Below the pieces are notes generated by a model that was not told the DNA's origin, made no database searches, and saw only the letters and a program-made list of their open reading frames with translations. Of a DNA stretch of 64,000 nt, positions 23,888 to 55,216 are shown piece after piece; position 1 is the first letter of the stretch; every line of letters begins with the position of its first letter. A program made the position numbers and the translations under genes. The stretch comes from Ilyobacter polytropus DSM 2926 (GTDB lineage Bacteria > Fusobacteriota > Fusobacteriia > Fusobacteriales > Fusobacteriaceae): the NCBI RefSeq assembly GCF_000165505.1, contig NC_014632.1, forward strand, positions 682,001 through 746,000, read 5' to 3'.

Positions 23888-23912
23888 TAATATAATGAAA
23901 GGGAGGATGAAG

Positions 23913-24401
23913 ATGTCTTGTAAAAACCAACTTAAGGAAGAGTGCTTCAAACAGTTAGATGAGTTTATCTTGAATCTTGAGGATAAGCAAGGGGCATTAA
24001 TCACAGTACTTCACAAGGCTCAGGAGATATTTGGATATCTACCGAAAGAAATTCAATCATTTGTAGCAGAAAGATTGGATTTACCATTAGCCAAAGTTTA
24101 CGGAGTTGTCAGCTTTTATTCGTTTTTCACAATGACTCCAAAGGGTAAATACCCTATTTCTGTATGTATGGGAACTGCTTGTTATGTAAGGGGAGCAGGA
24201 AAAGTACTAGAAGATTTCCAAAAGCAATTGGGAATCGAAGTGGGGGAAACGACTTCAGACGGAATATTTTCAATCGATGCACTAAGATGTGTAGGAGCAT
24301 GTGGACTAGCACCAGTTGTTCTTGTGGGAGAAGATGTTTTTGGTAAAGATGAAGCTAAAGATGTAAAAACAATACTAGATACTTATAAAGCCAGAGGGTA
24401 A
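23913..24401 (+). CDS. hydC: NuoE-like [2Fe-2S] subunit of NAD-dependent [FeFe] hydrogenase (HydC/HndA)
   Basis: A 162-residue NuoE/HndA family thioredoxin-like ferredoxin. The four [2Fe-2S] ligands are visible: CMGTACYVRG and LRCVGACGLAP, that is C-x4-C and C-x3-C. It carries electrons to the NuoF-like subunit in the soluble complex. I start at ATG 23913 with GGGAGG 7 bases upstream; ATG 23907 touches the ribosome site and ATG 23895 precedes it. First gene of the four-gene operon 23913-28460; the next gene starts 12 bases downstream. Confidence 0.92.
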   Translation: MSCKNQLKEECFKQLDEFILNLEDKQGALITVLHKAQEIFGYLPKEIQSFVAERLDLPLAKVYGVVSFYSFFTMTPKGKYPISVCMGTACYVRGAGKVLEDFQKQLGIEVGETTSDGIFSIDALRCVGACGLAPVVLVGEDVFGKDEAKDVKTILDTYKARG

Positions 24402-24413
24402 GGAGGTTTTCTT

Positions 24414-24833
24414 ATGTCAAAGAAGATAGCATCTTATGAAGAGCTTTTAAAAAAGAACAAAGAGTGTGAAGCTCTTATCGAAGTAAGAAAAAAATGAGAA
24501 GAAATAGATCTTGAAAATGTCAAGGTCGCAAAAATAGGAATCGGGCAGCCTACGCCTGAATCCAAAAGACTTGCAGATGAAGTAGCACTAGAGATAATAA
24601 AATATCTAAAAGAGTGTAATATAGAAGATGTGGCCGTTATTCAGACGGAATTTTATGGATATTCTGGTGAAAAGCCTACTTTAGAAATAATTATACCAAA
24701 AATGGGGAATGTTGTTTTTGGCAACATAACACCTCATGAAGCTGTAGAACTAGTAAAGAAATATGTTTTAGATACGGAGAAAATAAAAGATTTTCTTGTA
24801 GATAATGACGGAAACAATAAGTGTAATCATTAA
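24414..24833 (+). CDS. HndB-like subunit of the hydrogenase operon, interrupted by in-frame UGA at codon 28
   Basis: This 139-codon frame lies where HndB/(2Fe-2S) ferredoxin-like subunits normally lie between the NuoE and NuoF genes. The N-terminal ASYEELLKKNKECEALIE and the C-terminal part (GNITPHEAVELVKKYVLD) match the HndB layout. Codon 28 (24495-24497) is TGA, in frame, with family-like sequence on both sides and a normal AAGGAGG site before ATG 24414. The [2Fe-2S] cysteines of HndB are gone: the usual TCGIAAG and TGCIGLC segments read GQPTPES and TEFYGYS. The UGA may encode selenocysteine (this organism does so at 36583) or be a nonsense mutation. An 8-bp hairpin lies 10 bases after the UGA. 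Confidence 0.65.
24507..24527 (+). promoter_or_regulatory. Hairpin downstream of the UGA codon (candidate SECIS)
   Basis: GATCTTGA (24507-24514), loop AAATG, TCAAGGTC (24520-24527): 8 base pairs including one G-U. The loop starts 17 bases after the UGA, within the bacterial SECIS range, and holds a G followed by U. The G is at the loop's 3' end rather than among the first two bases as in most known SECIS loops, so the call is tentative. Confidence 0.4.
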
Positions 24834-24849: not shown

Positions 24850-26637
24850 ATGTCAGATAAAAAGCACGTCCTAATATGTGGAGGTACAGGATGTCTTTCT
24901 TCCAAGAGCAGACAAATTGCGGATAATATCAACACTGTCCTTAAAGAAAAAGGGATGGAGGATCAAGTAGAGGTAGTATTGACTGGATGTTTTGGTTTCT
25001 GTGAAAAGGGACCAATTGTAAAGATAATGCCTGAAAATACATTCTATGTTGAGGTTAAGCCTGAAGATGCTGGAAGAATAGTAGAAGAGGATTTAATAAA
25101 GGGAGATAAAATAGAAACTCTACTTTACAGAGATCCGAAAACTGGAACAAGAATTCACGAAGGTGAAAACATGGAGTTCTATAAGAAGCAGATGAGAATA
25201 GCTCTCAGAAACTGTGGTCTTATTAATCCTGAAAATATAGAGGAGTATCTAGGTAACAGAGGTTACATGGCACTAGGAAAATGTCTTAATGAAATGAATC
25301 CTCAATCAGTAATTGACGAGATGAAGCTTTCTGGTCTTAGAGGAAGAGGTGGGGGAGGATTCCCTACTGGTCTCAAATGGCAGTTTGCTGCAAATAATAG
25401 TGCTGATCAAAAATATGTTGTATGTAATGCTGACGAGGGAGATCCGGGAGCATTTATGGACAGATCGATACTCGAAGGTGACCCTCACTCTGTTATAGAG
25501 GCTATGGCTATCTGTGGATACTCTACAGGTGCAAGCAAAGGTCTTGTATACATCAGAGCAGAATATCCTCTAGCAATCAATAGACTTAAAAAAGCTATGG
25601 ATGATGCTAGAGAATATGGACTACTAGGAAAAAATATTCTTGGATCAGGTTTTGATTTTGATATAGAGATCAAATATGGTGCGGGAGCATTTGTATGTGG
25701 AGAAGAAACTGCTCTTATCCATTCTATGGAGGGAGAAAGAGGGGAACCTACATCAAAACCTCCTTTCCCAGCTGAATCAGGATACTGGGGAAAACCTACA
25801 AACGTTAACAACGTTGAAACTTTTGCAAATATACCGGAAATCATCTTAAATGGTGGAGAATGGTTTAAATCTATAGGAACTGAAAAGTCTTCAGGAACAA
25901 AAGTATTTGCACTTGCTGGGAAAATAAACAACGTAGGACTTGTAGAAGTACCTATGGGAACTACTTTAAGAGAAGTAATTTTTGAAATTGGTGGCGGTAT
26001 CTCAAACGGTAAGAAGTTTAAGGCTGTTCAGACAGGAGGACCTTCTGGTGGATGTCTGACTGAAAGAGACTTAGATACTCCAATTGATTTTGACTCTCTT
26101 TTAGCAAAAGGATCTATGATGGGATCTGGTGGAATGATCGTAATGGATGAAGATAACTGTATGGTTGCAGTATCTAAATTCTACCTTGAATTTACTGTGG
26201 AAGAATCTTGTGGAAAGTGTACTCCATGTAGAATAGGTAATACGAGATTATATGAAATCCTAGATAAGATTACAAAAGGTAACGGAACACTTGAAGACCT
26301 TGAATTGCTAAAGGAACTTTCTGAGACTATCAAAGACACATCTCTTTGCGGGCTTGGACAGACAGCTCCAAACCCTATACTATCGACACTTGATCAGTTC
26401 TGGGATGAATATGTGGCACACGTAGTGGATAAAAGATGTCCAGCTGGTGCTTGTACAGATCTTTTACAATATTCGATCAACGACAAATGTATCGGATGTA
26501 CGGCATGTGCTAGAGTATGTCCAGTAAATTGTATAGCTGGTAAGGTAAAAGAGAAGCATGTAATCGACCAAAGTGTATGTATAAAATGTGGAGCTTGCTA
26601 TTCTACATGTAAATTTGGAGCTATTGATAGAGGATAA
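24850..26637 (+). CDS. hydB: NuoF-like flavoprotein subunit of electron-bifurcating-type [FeFe] hydrogenase (HydB/HndC)
   Basis: A 595-residue NADH/FMN subunit. N-terminal thioredoxin-like [2Fe-2S] domain (CGGTGCLSSKSRQ and TGCFGFCEKGP), then the NuoF core with FMN loop GLRGRGGGGFPTGLKW and NADH motif GAGAFVCGEETALI. The SCGKCTPCRIG motif binds a [4Fe-4S] cluster, and the C-terminus adds a two-cluster ferredoxin (CIGCTACARVCP, CIKCGACYSTC). In Thermotoga- and Desulfovibrio-type enzymes this subunit splits electrons between NAD and ferredoxin. The complex is cytoplasmic. Start ATG 24850 follows GGGGG. Confidence 0.94.
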   Translation: MSDKKHVLICGGTGCLSSKSRQIADNINTVLKEKGMEDQVEVVLTGCFGFCEKGPIVKIMPENTFYVEVKPEDAGRIVEEDLIKGDKIETLLYRDPKTGTRIHEGENMEFYKKQMRIALRNCGLINPENIEEYLGNRGYMALGKCLNEMNPQSVIDEMKLSGLRGRGGGGFPTGLKWQFAANNSADQKYVVCNADEGDPGAFMDRSILEGDPHSVIEAMAICGYSTGASKGLVYIRAEYPLAINRLKKAMDDAREYGLLGKNILGSGFDFDIEIKYGAGAFVCGEETALIHSMEGERGEPTSKPPFPAESGYWGKPTNVNNVETFANIPEIILNGGEWFKSIGTEKSSGTKVFALAGKINNVGLVEVPMGTTLREVIFEIGGGISNGKKFKAVQTGGPSGGCLTERDLDTPIDFDSLLAKGSMMGSGGMIVMDEDNCMVAVSKFYLEFTVEESCGKCTPCRIGNTRLYEILDKITKGNGTLEDLELLKELSETIKDTSLCGLGQTAPNPILSTLDQFWDEYVAHVVDKRCPAGACTDLLQYSINDKCIGCTACARVCPVNCIAGKVKEKHVIDQSVCIKCGACYSTCKFGAIDRG

Positions 26638-26681: not shown

Positions 26682-28460
26682 ATGGAAATGGTAAAGCTTA
26701 TTATAGATGGAAAAGCAGTAGAAGCGCCTAAAGGTGCAACAATCGTTGCAGCTGCTAAATCGTTGGGAATAACAATTCCTACTCTTTGTCATCTTCAGAT
26801 GGGAGGAGTAGGTTATAAAAATGACTGTGCTTCATGTAGAGTCTGTGTAGTAGAGGTAGAGGGAAGAAGAAACCTTGCACCGGCATGTGCTACACCTGTA
26901 TATGACGGTATGGTAGTAACTACAAATTCAATGAAGGTAATGCAAAAAAGAAAAACAGTATTGGAACTTCTTCTTTCTGATCATCCAAAAGACTGTCTTG
27001 CTTGTTCTAAGAACGGAGAGTGTGAACTCCAAGACCTTGCAATGCAATTTGGTGTTAGAGAAATAAGATTTGCAGGTAAAGAATCTACATATAGACAAGA
27101 TGTATCACCTTCTATAATCAGAGATATCGACAAATGTATCATGTGTAGAAGATGTGAAACTATGTGTAATGTAATACAGACTTGTGGAGTTCTTTCAGGG
27201 GTAAACAGAGGATTTGAAGCTGTTGTGGCTCCAGCATTTGAACAAGATCTAGAGGATACGGCATGTACTTACTGTGGACAGTGTGTGGCAGTATGTCCAG
27301 TAGGGGCACTTCATGAAGCTGACCACACATGGAGACTTGTAAAAGACCTTGCTAACCCTGCTAAAAAAGTGGTAGTTCAAGTGGCTCCTGCAGTCAGAGT
27401 AGCTCTTGGAGAAGAGTTTGGCTTTGAACCTGGTACAAATGTTGAAGGTAAGATGATAGCTGCACTTAGAAAGTTAGGATTTGATATGGTATTTGATACT
27501 AACTGGTCAGCTGACCTTACGATAATGGAAGAGGCTTCTGAGCTTATTGACAGAGTAACAAAGAAACTTGCTGGAGATGAAGATGTAAAACTTCCTATCC
27601 TTACTTCTTGTTGTCCTGCATGGGTTAAGTTCTTTGAGCACAATTACCCTGATATGCTAGATGTACCTTCTACAGCTAAATCTCCTCAACAAATGTTTGG
27701 TGCAATAGCTAAAAATGTTTGGGCAAAGGAAGAAGGAATTGATAAGAAGGATCTTATAGTTGTATCTATAATGCCTTGTCTTGCAAAGAAATATGAAGCT
27801 TCTAGAGAGGAATTCGCTGATAAAGACGGAAATCCTGATGTAGATTATTCTATCTCGACAAGAGAACTAGCAAAGCTTATAAAACAAGCTAACATCAACT
27901 TTAATGGTTTAGATGAGGAAGAAGTAGATAATCCTCTAGGAAGCTACACAGGGGCCGGAGTAATATTCGGTAGAACTGGAGGAGTTATAGAGGCAGCAAC
28001 TAGAACTGCATACGAATGGATTACAGGAGATACTTTAGAGTCTGTAGACTTTACTGTATTAAGAGGTATGGAATCTGTAAGAGTAGCAGAGGTTTCTATT
28101 CCAGGATTAGATGAAAAGTTAGGTTCCAAATTTAGAATCGGAATCGCTCATGGTCTTGGATCAGCTAGAGAACTTCTAGATAAGATTAGATCAGGAGAAG
28201 AAACAGTACACGCTATAGAGATTATGGCTTGTAAAGGTGGATGTGTAGGTGGAGGTGGACAGCCTTATCACCATGGGGATTTTGGAGTAATAGTGAAAAG
28301 AGCAGCTGGACTGACTTCTATAGATGAAGGTAAAGAGCTAAGAAAATCACATGAAAATCCTTATATCAAGGAACTTTATGAAAAGCACTTAGGTAAACCA
28401 ATGAGCCACAAGGCACATGATATATTACATACAGAGTATTTCCCAAAACATAAAATGTAA
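26682..28460 (+). CDS. hydA: [FeFe] hydrogenase catalytic subunit (HydA/HndD type)
   Basis: A 592-residue enzyme that makes or uses H2. N-terminal plant-type [2Fe-2S] domain (CASCRVCVVEV), the His-Cys3 cluster (HPKDCLACSKNGECEL), two [4Fe-4S] sites (CIMCRRCETMC, CTYCGQCVAVCP) and the H-cluster motifs TSCCPAWVKF, MPCLAKKYE and ACKGGCVGGGGQP. The L1 and L2 motifs differ slightly from the common PCTAKK and CPGGC forms. The small C-terminal domain is present. GGAGTG precedes ATG 26682. As the last gene of the operon it accepts electrons from HydB/HydC and ferredoxin. Confidence 0.96.
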   Translation: MEMVKLIIDGKAVEAPKGATIVAAAKSLGITIPTLCHLQMGGVGYKNDCASCRVCVVEVEGRRNLAPACATPVYDGMVVTTNSMKVMQKRKTVLELLLSDHPKDCLACSKNGECELQDLAMQFGVREIRFAGKESTYRQDVSPSIIRDIDKCIMCRRCETMCNVIQTCGVLSGVNRGFEAVVAPAFEQDLEDTACTYCGQCVAVCPVGALHEADHTWRLVKDLANPAKKVVVQVAPAVRVALGEEFGFEPGTNVEGKMIAALRKLGFDMVFDTNWSADLTIMEEASELIDRVTKKLAGDEDVKLPILTSCCPAWVKFFEHNYPDMLDVPSTAKSPQQMFGAIAKNVWAKEEGIDKKDLIVVSIMPCLAKKYEASREEFADKDGNPDVDYSISTRELAKLIKQANINFNGLDEEEVDNPLGSYTGAGVIFGRTGGVIEAATRTAYEWITGDTLESVDFTVLRGMESVRVAEVSIPGLDEKLGSKFRIGIAHGLGSARELLDKIRSGEETVHAIEIMACKGGCVGGGGQPYHHGDFGVIVKRAAGLTSIDEGKELRKSHENPYIKELYEKHLGKPMSHKAHDILHTEYFPKHKM

Positions 28461-35259: not shown

Positions 35260-35550
35260 CCCACAGGATTATAGTTAATTGTATAAAATATATTTTTATT
35301 TATTTTAACATTTAAAAAATTATAAATAAAGCCAATTTTTATAAAGGAAAAGGGAAAAAAGGTATTAAAAGTTTCATTTATATTCTTATATCATTTTGGA
35401 AACTCTTCAGTTGTACTTTAACAGTTCGCTTTGTCTGTAAAAAATGATTTTTAATATAACTATATAGAATAAAAAAAGTGTTAAATTGAAATTATATTGA
35501 TTCTCTAGAAATATTATACTGTAAAAAACATATAGAATATAAGGAGGGTG
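35260..35550 (+). promoter_or_regulatory. Divergent control region, AraC regulator / formate dehydrogenase
   Basis: AT-rich. A strong -10 (TATACT, 35515-35520) has only a weak -35 (TTATAT, 35492-35497) at 17 bases, as is common for activator-dependent promoters. No perfect TGTTA-N6-TAACA site and no sigma-54 -24/-12 boxes were seen. Confidence 0.5.
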
Positions 35551-38223
35551 ATGGTGAAGATATTAGTTAACGGAGAACATTATAATGTTTCTCATGAGAA
35601 AAAACTTATCGATGTACTGGGAGAAGTTGGAGTTGAGATACCTAGCTTCTGTCACGATACAAGGATAATAGAAAAGAACGAAAGCTGTGGTATATGCAGT
35701 GTCGAAGTAAATGGTGAGATTAAAAAAGCCTGTGAAATAGAGGCTCAAGATGGTATGGTCATAGAAACACATACAAATGCAGTGACAAATATGAGAAAAG
35801 GTATTCTGAAAGAGATCATAGAGGATCATCCCTTAGATTGTCTGGGATGCGTGAAATCCGGAGATTGTAAACTTCAGGATTATTGCTATGAGTATAATGT
35901 GGAACAGACAAGTAATGCCTGCAAAGAAAGTCTGATGGCAGATTCAAGTAATCCTTTTTTTACAATTGATTCTAATAAATGTATTTCATGTGGCAAGTGC
36001 GTAAAGGTATGTGAAACACTGCAGTGTAACAATGTATTAAAATTAGATCCAGTAACTAAGAAAGTGTTAGTTTCTGAAGGTGTTAAAATAGATGAATCTA
36101 ACTGTGCCTTCTGTGGAAACTGTGTAAGTGTGTGCCCGGTGGGAGCGCTACAGCCAAAGGAGAAAACCAGATTTAGGAAATGGGAAGTAGAAAGGACACA
36201 GACGACATGCTCATACTGTGGTGTAGGATGCCAGTTTAATCTTCTCTCTAAAGGAAATAAAATTGTTGGGGTAGAGCCTATAAATATGGCTCCAAATGAT
36301 GGGTTACTCTGTGTAAAGGGGAAATTTGGTTATAAGTTTATAGATCATCCAGAAAGAGTGAAAACACCTCTTATAAAGGAAAATGGAAAATTTAGAGAAG
36401 CTAGCTGGGAAGAGGCGTATGACCTGTTTTTAAGCAAGGCGACTAAGATAAAAGATGAATTTGGTCCTGACGCCTTTGCAGGGTTAGCATCTGCTAGATG
36501 TACAAATGAAGATAACTTTGTATTTCAAAAATTTATGAGGGTTGGTATAGGAACTAATAATATAGATCATTGTGCACGTCTTTGACATGCCTCAACAGTT
36601 GCCGGGCTTGCAACTACATTAGGAAGTGGTGCTATGACAAATAGTATCTCAGAAGCAAAGGATTCAGATCTGATATTTGTAATCGGGTCAAATCCAAGGG
36701 AAAATCACCCTGTAATAGGGGCAAAAATCAAACAGGCATTCAGGAATGGTACTAAAGTGATAGTAGCAGACCCGAGAAGAATAGATTTAGCTGATGATGC
36801 TGAAGTATTTATGCAGGTTAAGGTAGGAGCTAATATAGCTCTTATAAACGGAATGATAAACACAGTGATAACTGAAGGTTTAGTTGACGCTGATTATATA
36901 AAAAATCATACTGAAGGATATGAAGAACTAAAGAAAATGGTAGCAAAATATACACCTGAAGAAGTATCTGAAATAGCAGGAGTGTCTGCTGAAGATATCA
37001 GAAGGGCTGCAAGACTTTATGCTACAAGTAAGGCTTCCTCTATCTATTATGCAATGGGAATTACTCAGTTTAAAACAGGTACAAATAATGTAATAGCCTT
37101 GTCTAATCTGGCATTGATTACCGGGCAGATGGGAAGACCTGGAACTGGAATAAACCCTCTTAGAGGACAAAATAATGTACAGGGGTCCTGCGATATGGGA
37201 GCATTCCCAGACGAATATCCAGGGTATCAAAAGGTATTAGATAAAAATGTTATTGATAAATTTGAAAAACTATGGGGAGTAGAAGTTCCCAAAAAAGTAG
37301 GGCTGACTCTACCTCAGATTATGGATGCGGCTCATCATGGGCATGTTAAATTTATGTATATAATGGGGGAGAATCCAGTTGTATCTGATCCTGATACAAA
37401 ACATATATTAGAATCTTTGGAAGCGTTGGATTTTTTAGTTGTTCAGGATATATTTATGACTGAAACAGCTAAAAAAGCAGACCTTATCCTTCCGGCTTTG
37501 TCATTTGCAGAAAAAGATGGAACTTTTACAAATACCGAAAGAAAGGTTCAGAGGGTAAGAAAAGCAGTACAGGCTGTACCAAATGCCAAGGCCGACTGGA
37601 AAATATTTACTGAACTTTTAAATAAGTTTGGTTATAAGGAAGATTTCTCACATCCATCTGAGATAATGGATGAGATAGCCACTCTTATACCTCAGTATGC
37701 AGGAATATCATATGACAGGATAGAAGTTGATGGACTCCAGTGGCCTGTAAAGGATAAAAATCATCCTGGAACTCCAATACTTCATGTAGATGGTGCAATT
37801 AGAGGTAAAGGGAAGATAGTGCCTGTAGAGTATGAGCTTCCTGGAGATCTTATAAATGAAGAGTATCCTATAATTCTTACAAATGGTAGAAATCTTTATC
37901 ATTATCATACAAGAACCATGACTGCAAAGACTGAAGGTCTGCACAAAAAGTCTCCAGAATCTTATATTGAGATGAATCCTCTTACCTGTGAAAAAATCGG
38001 GGTAAAAGATGGAGACATGGTAAAAGTAACTTCTAGAAGAGGAAGCGTAAAAACTAAGGTTTTAAAAACAGATATTATACAAGACGGAACTGTATTTATG
38101 ACATTCCACTTTGCCGAAGGGTCGGCTAATGTACTTACAGGTACAGATGCAATTGATGTAAAGTCAGGGGAACCTGAATTAAAATTGACAGCTGTGTCTG
38201 TGGAAAAATGTGAGGTGAACTAG
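35551..38223 (+). CDS. fdhF: Selenocysteine-containing formate dehydrogenase with NuoG-like N-terminus
   Basis: A molybdenum (or tungsten)/molybdopterin formate dehydrogenase of 890 residues that oxidises formate or reduces CO2. Residues 1-220 are a NuoG-like module: [2Fe-2S] (CGICSVEV), His-Cys3 cluster (HPLDCLGCVKSGDCKL) and two [4Fe-4S] sites (CISCGKCVKVC, CAFCGNCVSVCP). Then comes CSYCGVGCQFNLL, the catalytic [4Fe-4S] site. UGA at 36583-36585 (codon 345) sits in DHCARLUHASTVAGL, exactly the selenocysteine position of E. coli FdhF, with the catalytic histidine next. A SECIS hairpin follows. The C-terminal domain has NGRNLYHYHTRTMT. Start ATG 35551 after AAGGAGGG; GTG 35554 is also possible. 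hydA2 follows by 2 bases. Confidence 0.96.
36583..36615 (+). promoter_or_regulatory. UGA selenocysteine codon and SECIS hairpin of fdhF
   Basis: UGA at 36583-36585. The hairpin AGTTGC (36597-36602), loop CGGGCTT, GCAACT (36610-36615) starts its loop 17 bases after the UGA, with G in the first two loop positions, matching the bacterial SECIS rule and close to the E. coli fdhF element. Confidence 0.92.
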
Positions 38224-38225
38224 GA

Positions 38226-39944
38226 ATGGATATTAAATTAACTGTAAACAATAAAGAAACGATCTTCGACGGTGGAATAAGTCTATTGGAAAATCTTGAT
38301 AATATGGGTATAGATATTCCCTCTCTTTGCTATCATAAAGATCTAGGTAGTCAGGATGTTTGTGGAATATGCGTAATAGACATAGACGGAGAACTGGTAA
38401 AATCCTGTTCTACAAAACCAAAAGAGGGTATGGTAATAAGAACTTATACAGATGATATAGAGGCAAGGAGAAAAGATATCCTTGAAAAACTTATGGAAAA
38501 CCATTCAAATGACTGTCTGACATGTGAAAAAGCAAAGGGAGACTGTCAGCTGCAAGATGCCTGTTATGAGTACGGAGTGGAAAACAGAAACTCAAAGCCA
38601 GTTACGATGTATGAAATAGACCGATCATCTGAAGGGATGGTAAGGGATATGAACAAGTGCATAAAATGTGAGAAATGTGTGGCTGTATGCAAAGACATTC
38701 AGGGTATAGGGGTTTACGATGTAGAGGTAGTCGACGGAGAAAAAGAGATAGTCTTAGTCGGTGGGAAGAACTTATCTGAGACAAAGTGCATAAGCTGTGG
38801 TCAGTGTGTAAAGGTCTGCCCAGTGGGAGCCCTTGTTGAAAATAACACTGTTTCTGAATTAAGCAGAGAGCTTAAAAAAAGAGAAAAGCACTTTATTGTG
38901 CAGATGGCTCCTGCAATAAAACACACTATAGGGGAGGAGTTTTTTATAGCCCCTGGGCAGGACGTTACTTCTATGATGGTAGGGGCATTAAAAAAACTTG
39001 GATTTTCCAAGGTGTTTAGTACAGATTATTCTGCTGATGTAACAATCATGGAAGAGGGAACAGAGCTGATACAGCGTCTTACCAAAGGAAAGGGAAAGAC
39101 TCCGATGTTTACATCTTGCTGTCCTGGGTGGGTGAATTACGTGGAAAAAAATCATCCGGAATTTCTTGGGAACTTATCTAGTTGTAAGTCTCCCCAGCAG
39201 ATATTCGGTGCCTTGGCAAAGAGTTATTATGCTGAAGAATCTAAAGTACCAAAGGAGGATATCGTAGTGGTATCTATAATGCCTTGTACTGCTAAAAAAG
39301 GTGAGGCTCAAAGAATTGAGATGGAGGATCACGACAGAGTAAGGGATGTAGATGTAGTAATTACAACTAGAGAATTTGCAAAGCTTGTAAAAATGAATAA
39401 CATAAATTTTGCTGCTTTGCCTAATGGGCAGGAATACGATTCATTTATGGGTAAGGGTTCTAGTGCAGGAAGACTTTTTGGTACTTCTGGAGGAGTAATG
39501 GAAGCAGCTCTTAGAACTGTAGCCACTATTTTAAGTGAAGAAAAAGTCGGAGTTCTTGAATTTGAAGAGATAAGAGGCTTCAAGAATGTAAAAGAAACCA
39601 CCGTAGAGATTGGGGAAAATAAACTTAAGCTAGCCGTTGTAAACGGGATTGGATCTGCACATTCGGTGATGGAGGGCATAAAATCCGGCAGGCTTTATTA
39701 TGATTTTGTAGAAGTAATGGCCTGTCACGGTGGATGTATAAGCGGTGGAGGGGCACCTATCCCTGACAATTTGGATGTGAGAAGACAAAGAATGGAAGGT
39801 ATGCACGGTTTTGACAAAACAAGTACTTTGAGAAGGTCCCATGATAATCCGGAAATAAAGAGGCTTTATGAAAACTACTTGGAAGATCCATGTGGCCATA
39901 AAAGCCACCACCTATTGCATACCACATACAGCGACAAAAGTTAA
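38226..39944 (+). CDS. [FeFe] hydrogenase paired with formate dehydrogenase
   Basis: A 572-residue monomeric-type [FeFe] hydrogenase. [2Fe-2S] domain (VCGICVIDI), His-Cys3 cluster (HSNDCLTCEKAKGDCQL), two [4Fe-4S] sites (CIKCEKCVAVC, CISCGQCVKVCP) and H-cluster motifs TSCCPGWVNY, MPCTAKKGE and ACHGGCISGGGAP; the last has H where most have P. The C-terminal GHKSHHLLHT is typical. It starts two bases after fdhF. Together the pair should interconvert formate and H2/CO2, like a soluble formate hydrogenlyase or hydrogen-dependent CO2 reductase, but no HycB-type linker subunit is present. Confidence 0.94.
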   Translation: MDIKLTVNNKETIFDGGISLLENLDNMGIDIPSLCYHKDLGSQDVCGICVIDIDGELVKSCSTKPKEGMVIRTYTDDIEARRKDILEKLMENHSNDCLTCEKAKGDCQLQDACYEYGVENRNSKPVTMYEIDRSSEGMVRDMNKCIKCEKCVAVCKDIQGIGVYDVEVVDGEKEIVLVGGKNLSETKCISCGQCVKVCPVGALVENNTVSELSRELKKREKHFIVQMAPAIKHTIGEEFFIAPGQDVTSMMVGALKKLGFSKVFSTDYSADVTIMEEGTELIQRLTKGKGKTPMFTSCCPGWVNYVEKNHPEFLGNLSSCKSPQQIFGALAKSYYAEESKVPKEDIVVVSIMPCTAKKGEAQRIEMEDHDRVRDVDVVITTREFAKLVKMNNINFAALPNGQEYDSFMGKGSSAGRLFGTSGGVMEAALRTVATILSEEKVGVLEFEEIRGFKNVKETTVEIGENKLKLAVVNGIGSAHSVMEGIKSGRLYYDFVEVMACHGGCISGGGAPIPDNLDVRRQRMEGMHGFDKTSTLRRSHDNPEIKRLYENYLEDPCGHKSHHLLHTTYSDKS

Positions 39945-54043: not shown

Positions 54044-55216
54044 ATGCAAAGATTTACAATACCAAGAGATCTATATTTCGGAGAGGACTCGCTATCTCAT
54101 TTAAAAAATATCAATGGAACTAAGGCTCTTATCGTTATCGGTTCAGAGAGATTAATAAACGATGGAACAGTACCTAGTGCTGTTGAATATTTAAAAGAAG
54201 CTGGAATAGAAAGTGAACTGTTCGTAGGAATAGAAAATGACCCTTGAGTAGCTACTGTTATGAAAGGTGTAGAAGCTATGAATAAATTTAAGCCCGATAC
54301 AATAATAGGAATAGGTGGAGGATCACCGATAGATGCGGCCAAAGCTATGTGGATCTTCTATGAGCACCCAACATTCACATTTGAAGAAGCTGCAAAACCA
54401 TTTAACCTACCAGAATTAAGAAACAAGGCTAAATTTATAGCAGTTCCGACAACAAGTGGTACCGCTACAGAAGTTACATCATTTGCTGTAATCACAGACA
54501 ATGAAACTAATATCAAATATCCAATCGCAGACTACAACATCACTCCAGATGTAGCTATTGTAGATACAAACTTAGTACAAACAATGCCTAAGGTATTAGT
54601 AGCAAACACAGGAATGGATGCATTAACTCATGCACTAGAAGCATATGTTTCAAAGGCAAGAAATCCATTTACAGATGCACTAGCGATGAAATCTATCGAG
54701 ATGATCTCAGAGACTTTAATCAACTCTTATAACGGTGAAGACTCTGCGAGAAAAGATATGCATATCGCACAAAACTTAGCAGGAATGGCATTCTCAAATG
54801 CAATCCTTGGAATAGTTCATTCAATGGCTCATAAGACAGGAAAAGTTTTAAATATTGATCATGGATTAGCCAATGCAATCTACCTTTCATATGCTGTCGA
54901 ATTCAATGCAAAAGATGAAATCGGAAAAGCACAATATGCTCATGCCGCTAAAACAATAGGTTTAGCCGGAAATAACGAAACTGAATTAGTTGAATCATTA
55001 GTAAACTTAATTAAAGAATTAAGAGAACAAATGGATATGCCTCATTCATTAAAAGAATTTGGAGTAGAAGAGGAGTTCTTCTTGGCTAACTTAGATGAGA
55101 TCGCAAGAACATCTGTAGGAGACCCATGTACAGGGACAAATCCAAGAGATATATCTGTAGAAGAGATGAAAAACTTATTTAAAGCTGTTTATTACGGTGA
55201 AAAAGTGACATTTTAA
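54044..55216 (+). CDS. Iron-containing alcohol dehydrogenase with in-frame UGA at codon 68
   Basis: A 390-codon Fe-ADH (NAD-dependent, group III), which interconverts aldehydes and alcohols. N-terminus PRDLYFGEDSLSHL, NAD loop IGIGGGSPIDAAKA, metal ligands in DALTHALEAYVS, GIVHSMAHKTG and DHGLANAI. Codon 68 (54245-54247) is TGA within ENDP-x-VATVMKGVEA. Related enzymes usually have serine or threonine there. Family sequence continues directly after it, so the UGA is within, not at the end of, the gene. It may be selenocysteine, readthrough or a point mutation (TCA to TGA). A SECIS hairpin is not convincing. AGGAGG precedes ATG 54044. Confidence 0.85.

Follow-up and report, generated by a model that had tools for sequence, protein, structure and literature searches.

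A small gene in the [FeFe]-hydrogenase operon of Ilyobacter polytropus DSM 2926 carries an in-frame UGA at codon 28 which, on comparative sequence evidence, is very probably a programmed recoding site that ribosomes translate through. The best single reading of the residue encoded there is selenocysteine (Sec), and we give it somewhat better than even chances.

The gene was found in a window of 64,000 nucleotides (contig NC_014632.1, positions 682,001 to 746,000), and its features are listed in Table 1. The reading frame opens with ATG, runs through 27 codons to the UGA and continues for 111 codons to a TAA stop (MSKKIASYEELLKKNKECEALIEVRKK-UGA-EEIDLENVKVAKIGIGQ...KCNH-TAA). The gene lies between hydC and hydB, the latter about 80–99% identical across the orthologous operons. 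Its NuoE-like and NuoF-like gene neighbours and its predicted thioredoxin (Trx)-like fold identify the product as an HndB-like subunit of a group A3 [FeFe] hydrogenase.

Table 1. Positions of the hydrogenase operon features and of the control gene in the window
Feature	Position	Strand	Remarks
hydC / HndA-like (NuoE-type) [2Fe-2S] subunit	23895..24401	+	PF01257
GGAGG ribosome-binding site of HndB-like gene	24402..24406	+	sequence
HndB-like hydrogenase-associated gene	24414..24833	+	139 residues; residue 28 UGA-coded; Trx-like fold core (predicted)
Cys18 codon of HndB-like gene	24465..24467	+	in 15/15 same-family UGA orthologues; none in UGA-less relatives
In-frame UGA, codon 28 of HndB-like gene	24495..24497	+	invariant in 16/16 orthologues
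8-bp hairpin, loop AAAUG (24515–24519)	24507..24527	+	conserved in own genus only; loop not SECIS-like
C-terminal Cys-Asn-His motif of HndB-like gene	24822..24830	+	C[ND]H in 15/16 orthologues; none in UGA-less relatives
hydB / HndC-like (NuoF-type) flavin subunit	24850..26637	+	function by family resemblance
hydA / HndD-like [FeFe]-hydrogenase catalytic subunit	26682..28460	+	function by family resemblance
Control: FdhA, formate dehydrogenase alpha (known selenoprotein family)	35548..38223	+	UGA 36583; SECIS-like hairpin 36597–36615, loop CGGGCUU

Conservation of the UGA codon and its surroundings

We scanned 61 genomes of the family and, in a second scan, 98 Fusobacteriota genomes for orthologues. 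Fifteen of the 61 family genomes contained the HndB-like gene, each with a single internal TGA that was at codon 28 in all cases. The second scan yielded a sixteenth orthologue in another family (G100; 39% identity), which also has the UGA, as codon 29 owing to one residue inserted upstream. The orthologues (16 of the 98 genomes, identity down to 39%) are spread over seven genera and two families, and their hosts include Propionigenium maris, Psychrilyobacter MAGs and an Ilyobacter MAG. Apart from the UGA, AGA25 is the only codon identical in all 16; among the 15 family orthologues, three of 143 codon columns are identical. An earlier note on this DNA had proposed comparing orthologues for UGA, Cys, Gly or Trp at this codon. 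No Cys, Gly or Trp codon occurred at the site in any of the 16, and this uniformity strongly favours functional recoding.

The closest other relatives, and the only UGA-less ones found, are two [2Fe-2S]-type proteins (in G025 and G026), which retain the cluster-type cysteines, have Gly (GGT) at the site and read across the region in one continuous frame. Comparison with them bears out the remark of the earlier note that the subunit in Ilyobacter has lost the cluster-type cysteines; the note had also said that the position is not a conserved Cys in HndB relatives. Selenocysteine families mostly have Cys homologues; none was found for this position, which is UGA in all 16 orthologues and Gly in both UGA-less relatives.

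Purifying selection was evident after the UGA (dN/dS ~0.1). Between the orthologues of G004 and G017 (L006 versus L008), dS was 0.56 and dN 0.05. Where Psychrilyobacter-group pairs were divergent enough, dS was 0.3–0.6 and dN 0.03–0.11, and the most distant pair of that group gave dS of 0.79 and dN of 0.24. The 27 codons before the UGA are conserved even more strongly than the part after it. The frame with family-like sequence on both sides of the UGA, as first proposed, was confirmed, and selection acts on both flanks. Since the UGA is present in all 16 genomes and the sequence behind it is under purifying selection, decay, sequencing error and reinitiation are unlikely and recoding is favoured.

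The UGA is accompanied by new cysteines. A Cys partner close to it is present in every UGA orthologue, as Cys18 at position −10 in the family and as a UxxC motif in G100, which has no Cys at −10; the UGA-less relatives lack such a partner. This co-occurrence is more readily explained by selenocysteine than by a neutral residue inserted during readthrough. The predicted structure has a Trx-like core, with a pLDDT of about 40 for residues 1–30 including the UGA region. The core weakly resembles HydB/NuoE-type domains: structural matches were NDUFA2 (B8) of complex I and the HydB N-terminal domain (7o6y_f, 7p8n_b; E about 0.001–0.004), both of low confidence and neither with Sec. A sequence search of the PDB with the HndB-like protein returned no match. 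The protein has no cluster-type cysteines and no Pfam match, and so does not qualify as a thioredoxin-like [2Fe-2S] ferredoxin; the relative L010 matches PF01257 weakly, under the cut-off. A redox role of the putative Sec would be a guess, and a weak one.

The downstream hairpin and the search for a SECIS

The earlier note also drew attention to an 8-bp stem with loop AAATG 17 nt after the UGA. This hairpin is present (GAUCUUGA/UCAAGGUC; −8.8 kcal/mol) and, as had been remarked, has no guanine at the start of the loop, whereas the FdhA and SelD loops are of the CGGG type. Its role as a SECIS was not supported. In the own genus, the hairpin is exceptional against synonymous recodings (z about −4), of which some 0.3% are as stable, but on the sequences at hand it is shared through identity by descent within the genus. 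Elsewhere, L005 has a different structure (z −2.9 against synonymous shuffles), the scores of G004 and G006 are weakly positive, those of the Psychrilyobacter-group genomes, G017 and G100 are about 0, and other genera are at chance. No consensus fold was obtained over all orthologue sequences and an Rfam search gave no significant match. No conserved SECIS thus emerged from folding to a consensus, from the z-scores or from a search with the SECIS model. The earlier note had held that ordinary varying residues at codon 28 and a non-conserved hairpin would speak against a selenoprotein; the codon does not vary, but the hairpin is indeed conserved in the own genus only.

The published SECIS model has a loop of 3–9 nt with G in its first two positions, a stem of 4–16 bp, a spacing of 16–37 nt and an MFE of at most −7.5 (PMC13188914). 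The hairpin of the own genus passes for stem, spacing and energy (−8.8 in its context) and fails for the loop G; in other genera the hairpin is mostly missing. A convincing hairpin with G at the loop start was found in none of the 16 hndB genes, unlike in the FdhA and SelD genes of the clade. Some bacterial selenoprotein genes do not fit the published model (PMC13188914, PMC9312934).

The positive controls gave the expected picture, with a loop CGGGU in the clade SelD and a spacing of 16–17 nt from the UGA. Several of the control hairpins in FdhA and SelD have local energies above −7.5, and they are unexceptional in that 23–35% of synonymous shuffles reach them, so that it is the common CGGG loop and not stability that marks these genes. 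Immediately after the FdhA gene, the window has a second [FeFe] hydrogenase (35548–39944 for both), for which A6 is the closest model, with a match under the cut-off.

Selenocysteine genes and the decoding of codon 28

The I. polytropus genome has a tRNA-Sec/SelA/SelB locus (L112) on a 961-kb contig, with SelD on the same contig, and the FdhA ~12 kb downstream of the HndB-like gene uses UGA as Sec, which speaks for the Sec reading. Each of the five near-complete genomes that carry the HndB-like gene encodes SelB, tRNA-Sec and SelD; the Sec genes and the hydrogenase genes lie on different contigs in the near-complete G000, G001, G002, G073 and G077. Among genomes of at most 10 contigs searched for Sec genes, these were found in 5/5 with the HndB-like gene, which was present in none of the 16 Sec-less genomes (Fisher 0.0002, not corrected for ancestry). 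SelB and/or tRNA-Sec occurred in 12 of the 16 host genomes overall.

The missing or incomplete Sec genes of the remaining four, all drafts of 20–170 contigs, are a real difficulty for the Sec reading. G004 and G017, which belong to one genus and are 93% and 99% complete, yielded no SelB, tRNA-Sec or SelD and only a SelA-like paralogue, G011 yielded only SelD of the Sec genes searched, and in G100 SelB was not found. These absences are not proof, because a second replicon can be missing from a draft assembly, as the partial sets of G076 (tRNA-Sec without SelB) and G078 (SelB without tRNA-Sec) illustrate. The divergent SelA of G004 and G017 was considered as an alternative Sec system and rejected, being a paralogue that also occurs in genomes without SelB.

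Further observations were made on these genes. The divergent SelA-like PLP protein (L032 8506–9909 in G017) is also found in G004, G008, G020, G025 and G026, in Fusobacteria without SelB. In L112 (2985–7481), the intact tRNA-Sec gene has integrase-like fragments beside it and, ~4.4 kb away, a second tRNA-Sec-like 3′ segment (record 707985–708028); this arrangement has the look of an element that inserted at selC. The SelD of Ilyobacter and of the G011 MAG has Cys, that of Propionigenium and the Psychrilyobacter group UGA (Sec) (L043, L047, L049 and L052 versus L044–L046, L048, L050, L051 and L053).

Under the Sec reading, the SelA/SelB/SelC/SelD system would insert Sec at the UGA, and ribosomes passing it would make the whole protein, an HndB-like fourth subunit in an [FeFe] hydrogenase of the electron-bifurcating type. 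The Sec would pair with Cys18 (within UxxC in the most distant orthologue), perhaps together with the C-terminal C-N-H motif, and Sec and Cys could form a thiol/selenol site, for redox chemistry or for a metal, in a subunit that lacks the usual cluster cysteines. A bacterial selenoprotein gene has conserved protein sequence on both sides of its UGA, and by sequence this is the case here. We do not file the protein as an established selenoprotein, because it fails the SECIS model and has no Cys homologue, but it may work like one. Of the new selenoprotein first suggested, the recoding is very likely and Sec is the likely residue; the proposed SECIS, a genus-only hairpin without the loop G, is not supported.

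The main rival, which we consider unlikely though clearly ahead of those below, is that another tRNA (Trp, Gly, Cys, near-cognate or dedicated) reads the UGA independently of Sec. The UGA would be kept because its inefficient readthrough fixes how much subunit is made, or how much 27-residue peptide there is relative to full protein, and it agrees with this that conservation is highest over the first 27 residues. The lack of a SECIS in most orthologues and the four drafts without a full Sec set, two of them with the SelA paralogue only, also point in this direction. However, if any residue served, a sense codon would be expected in at least one of 16 genomes, and the co-occurring new cysteines are left unexplained. 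Nor was a suppressor tRNA recognised in G004 and G017, where a pattern search, with ARAGORN on small stretches, gave no candidate with a UCA anticodon. A tentative form of this explanation would be an ancient, SECIS-free programmed decoding of UGA in Fusobacteriia, in some lineages without Sec machinery, in which either the mechanism or the residue would be one not known so far.

It is improbable that the locus makes two products, a peptide of 27 residues terminated at the UGA and a Trx-like domain whose translation begins afresh behind it. The invariant UGA and the selection on both parts would suit this arrangement, but 7 of the 16 orthologues have no in-frame ATG, GTG, TTG or CTG within 25 codons after the UGA and the others have no such codon in common, on which ground reinitiation was rejected. 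With the UGA-less relatives continuous over the same region and no common start codon after the UGA, translation through it is the simplest reading. Slippage on the A-run before the UGA was discarded since L004 (AAGAAG) and L102 (AAAAAG) have an interrupted run and the sequence beyond the UGA continues in the zero frame, and frameshifting or hopping since the alternative frames were not open in the cases read by eye.

A decaying gene, which the earlier note had entertained, or a nonsense mutation or sequencing error has next to no probability: UGA normally means stop, and the window holds a precedent in an alcohol dehydrogenase gene, but the same UGA in 16 genomes of seven genera, the low dN/dS and the lack of further stops or frameshifts in any orthologue already refute it. 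That iron-containing alcohol dehydrogenase (54044–55216) has an in-frame TGA at 54245 (codon 68) where the sister species has TCA (Ser; L123), so that the TGA is likely an ordinary recent nonsense mutation or a sequencing error.

Relation to known systems and significance

The gene product resembles HndB of the tetrameric Hnd of Solidesulfovibrio fructosivorans: each is a small fourth subunit in an [FeFe] hydrogenase of the group A3 type whose partner subunits are NuoE-like and NuoF-like (PMC10084766). According to its description, HndB probably has no redox centre (PMC10084766). In the gene studied here, codon 28 is UGA. Compared with [2Fe-2S]-type relatives, the cluster-type cysteines are gone, and Cys18 and the C-terminal CNH motif are new.

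Like bacterial selenoproteins, the HndB-like gene has a single in-frame UGA, conserved flanks, Sec genes in most hosts, a predicted Trx-like fold and a nearby Cys; unlike them, it has no recognisable SECIS and no Cys homologue. Hydrogenase-associated selenoproteins are known in [NiFeSe] hydrogenases and in the F420-(non-)reducing subunits FrhA, VhuU and VhuD. These proteins are unrelated to the HndB-like one, and their Sec is in [NiFe] enzymes, whereas this gene belongs to an [FeFe] enzyme.

An inventory of bacterial selenoproteins from 2026 comprises 119 families or subfamilies, with no HndB-like family among them (PMC13188914). If Sec is the true residue, the gene would represent a selenoprotein family outside that inventory and tied to [FeFe] hydrogenase, its insertion signal would escape current SECIS models, and similar genes would be annotated as truncated. 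If the residue is not Sec, a stop codon would have been kept across two bacterial families and decoded by a mechanism not yet described.
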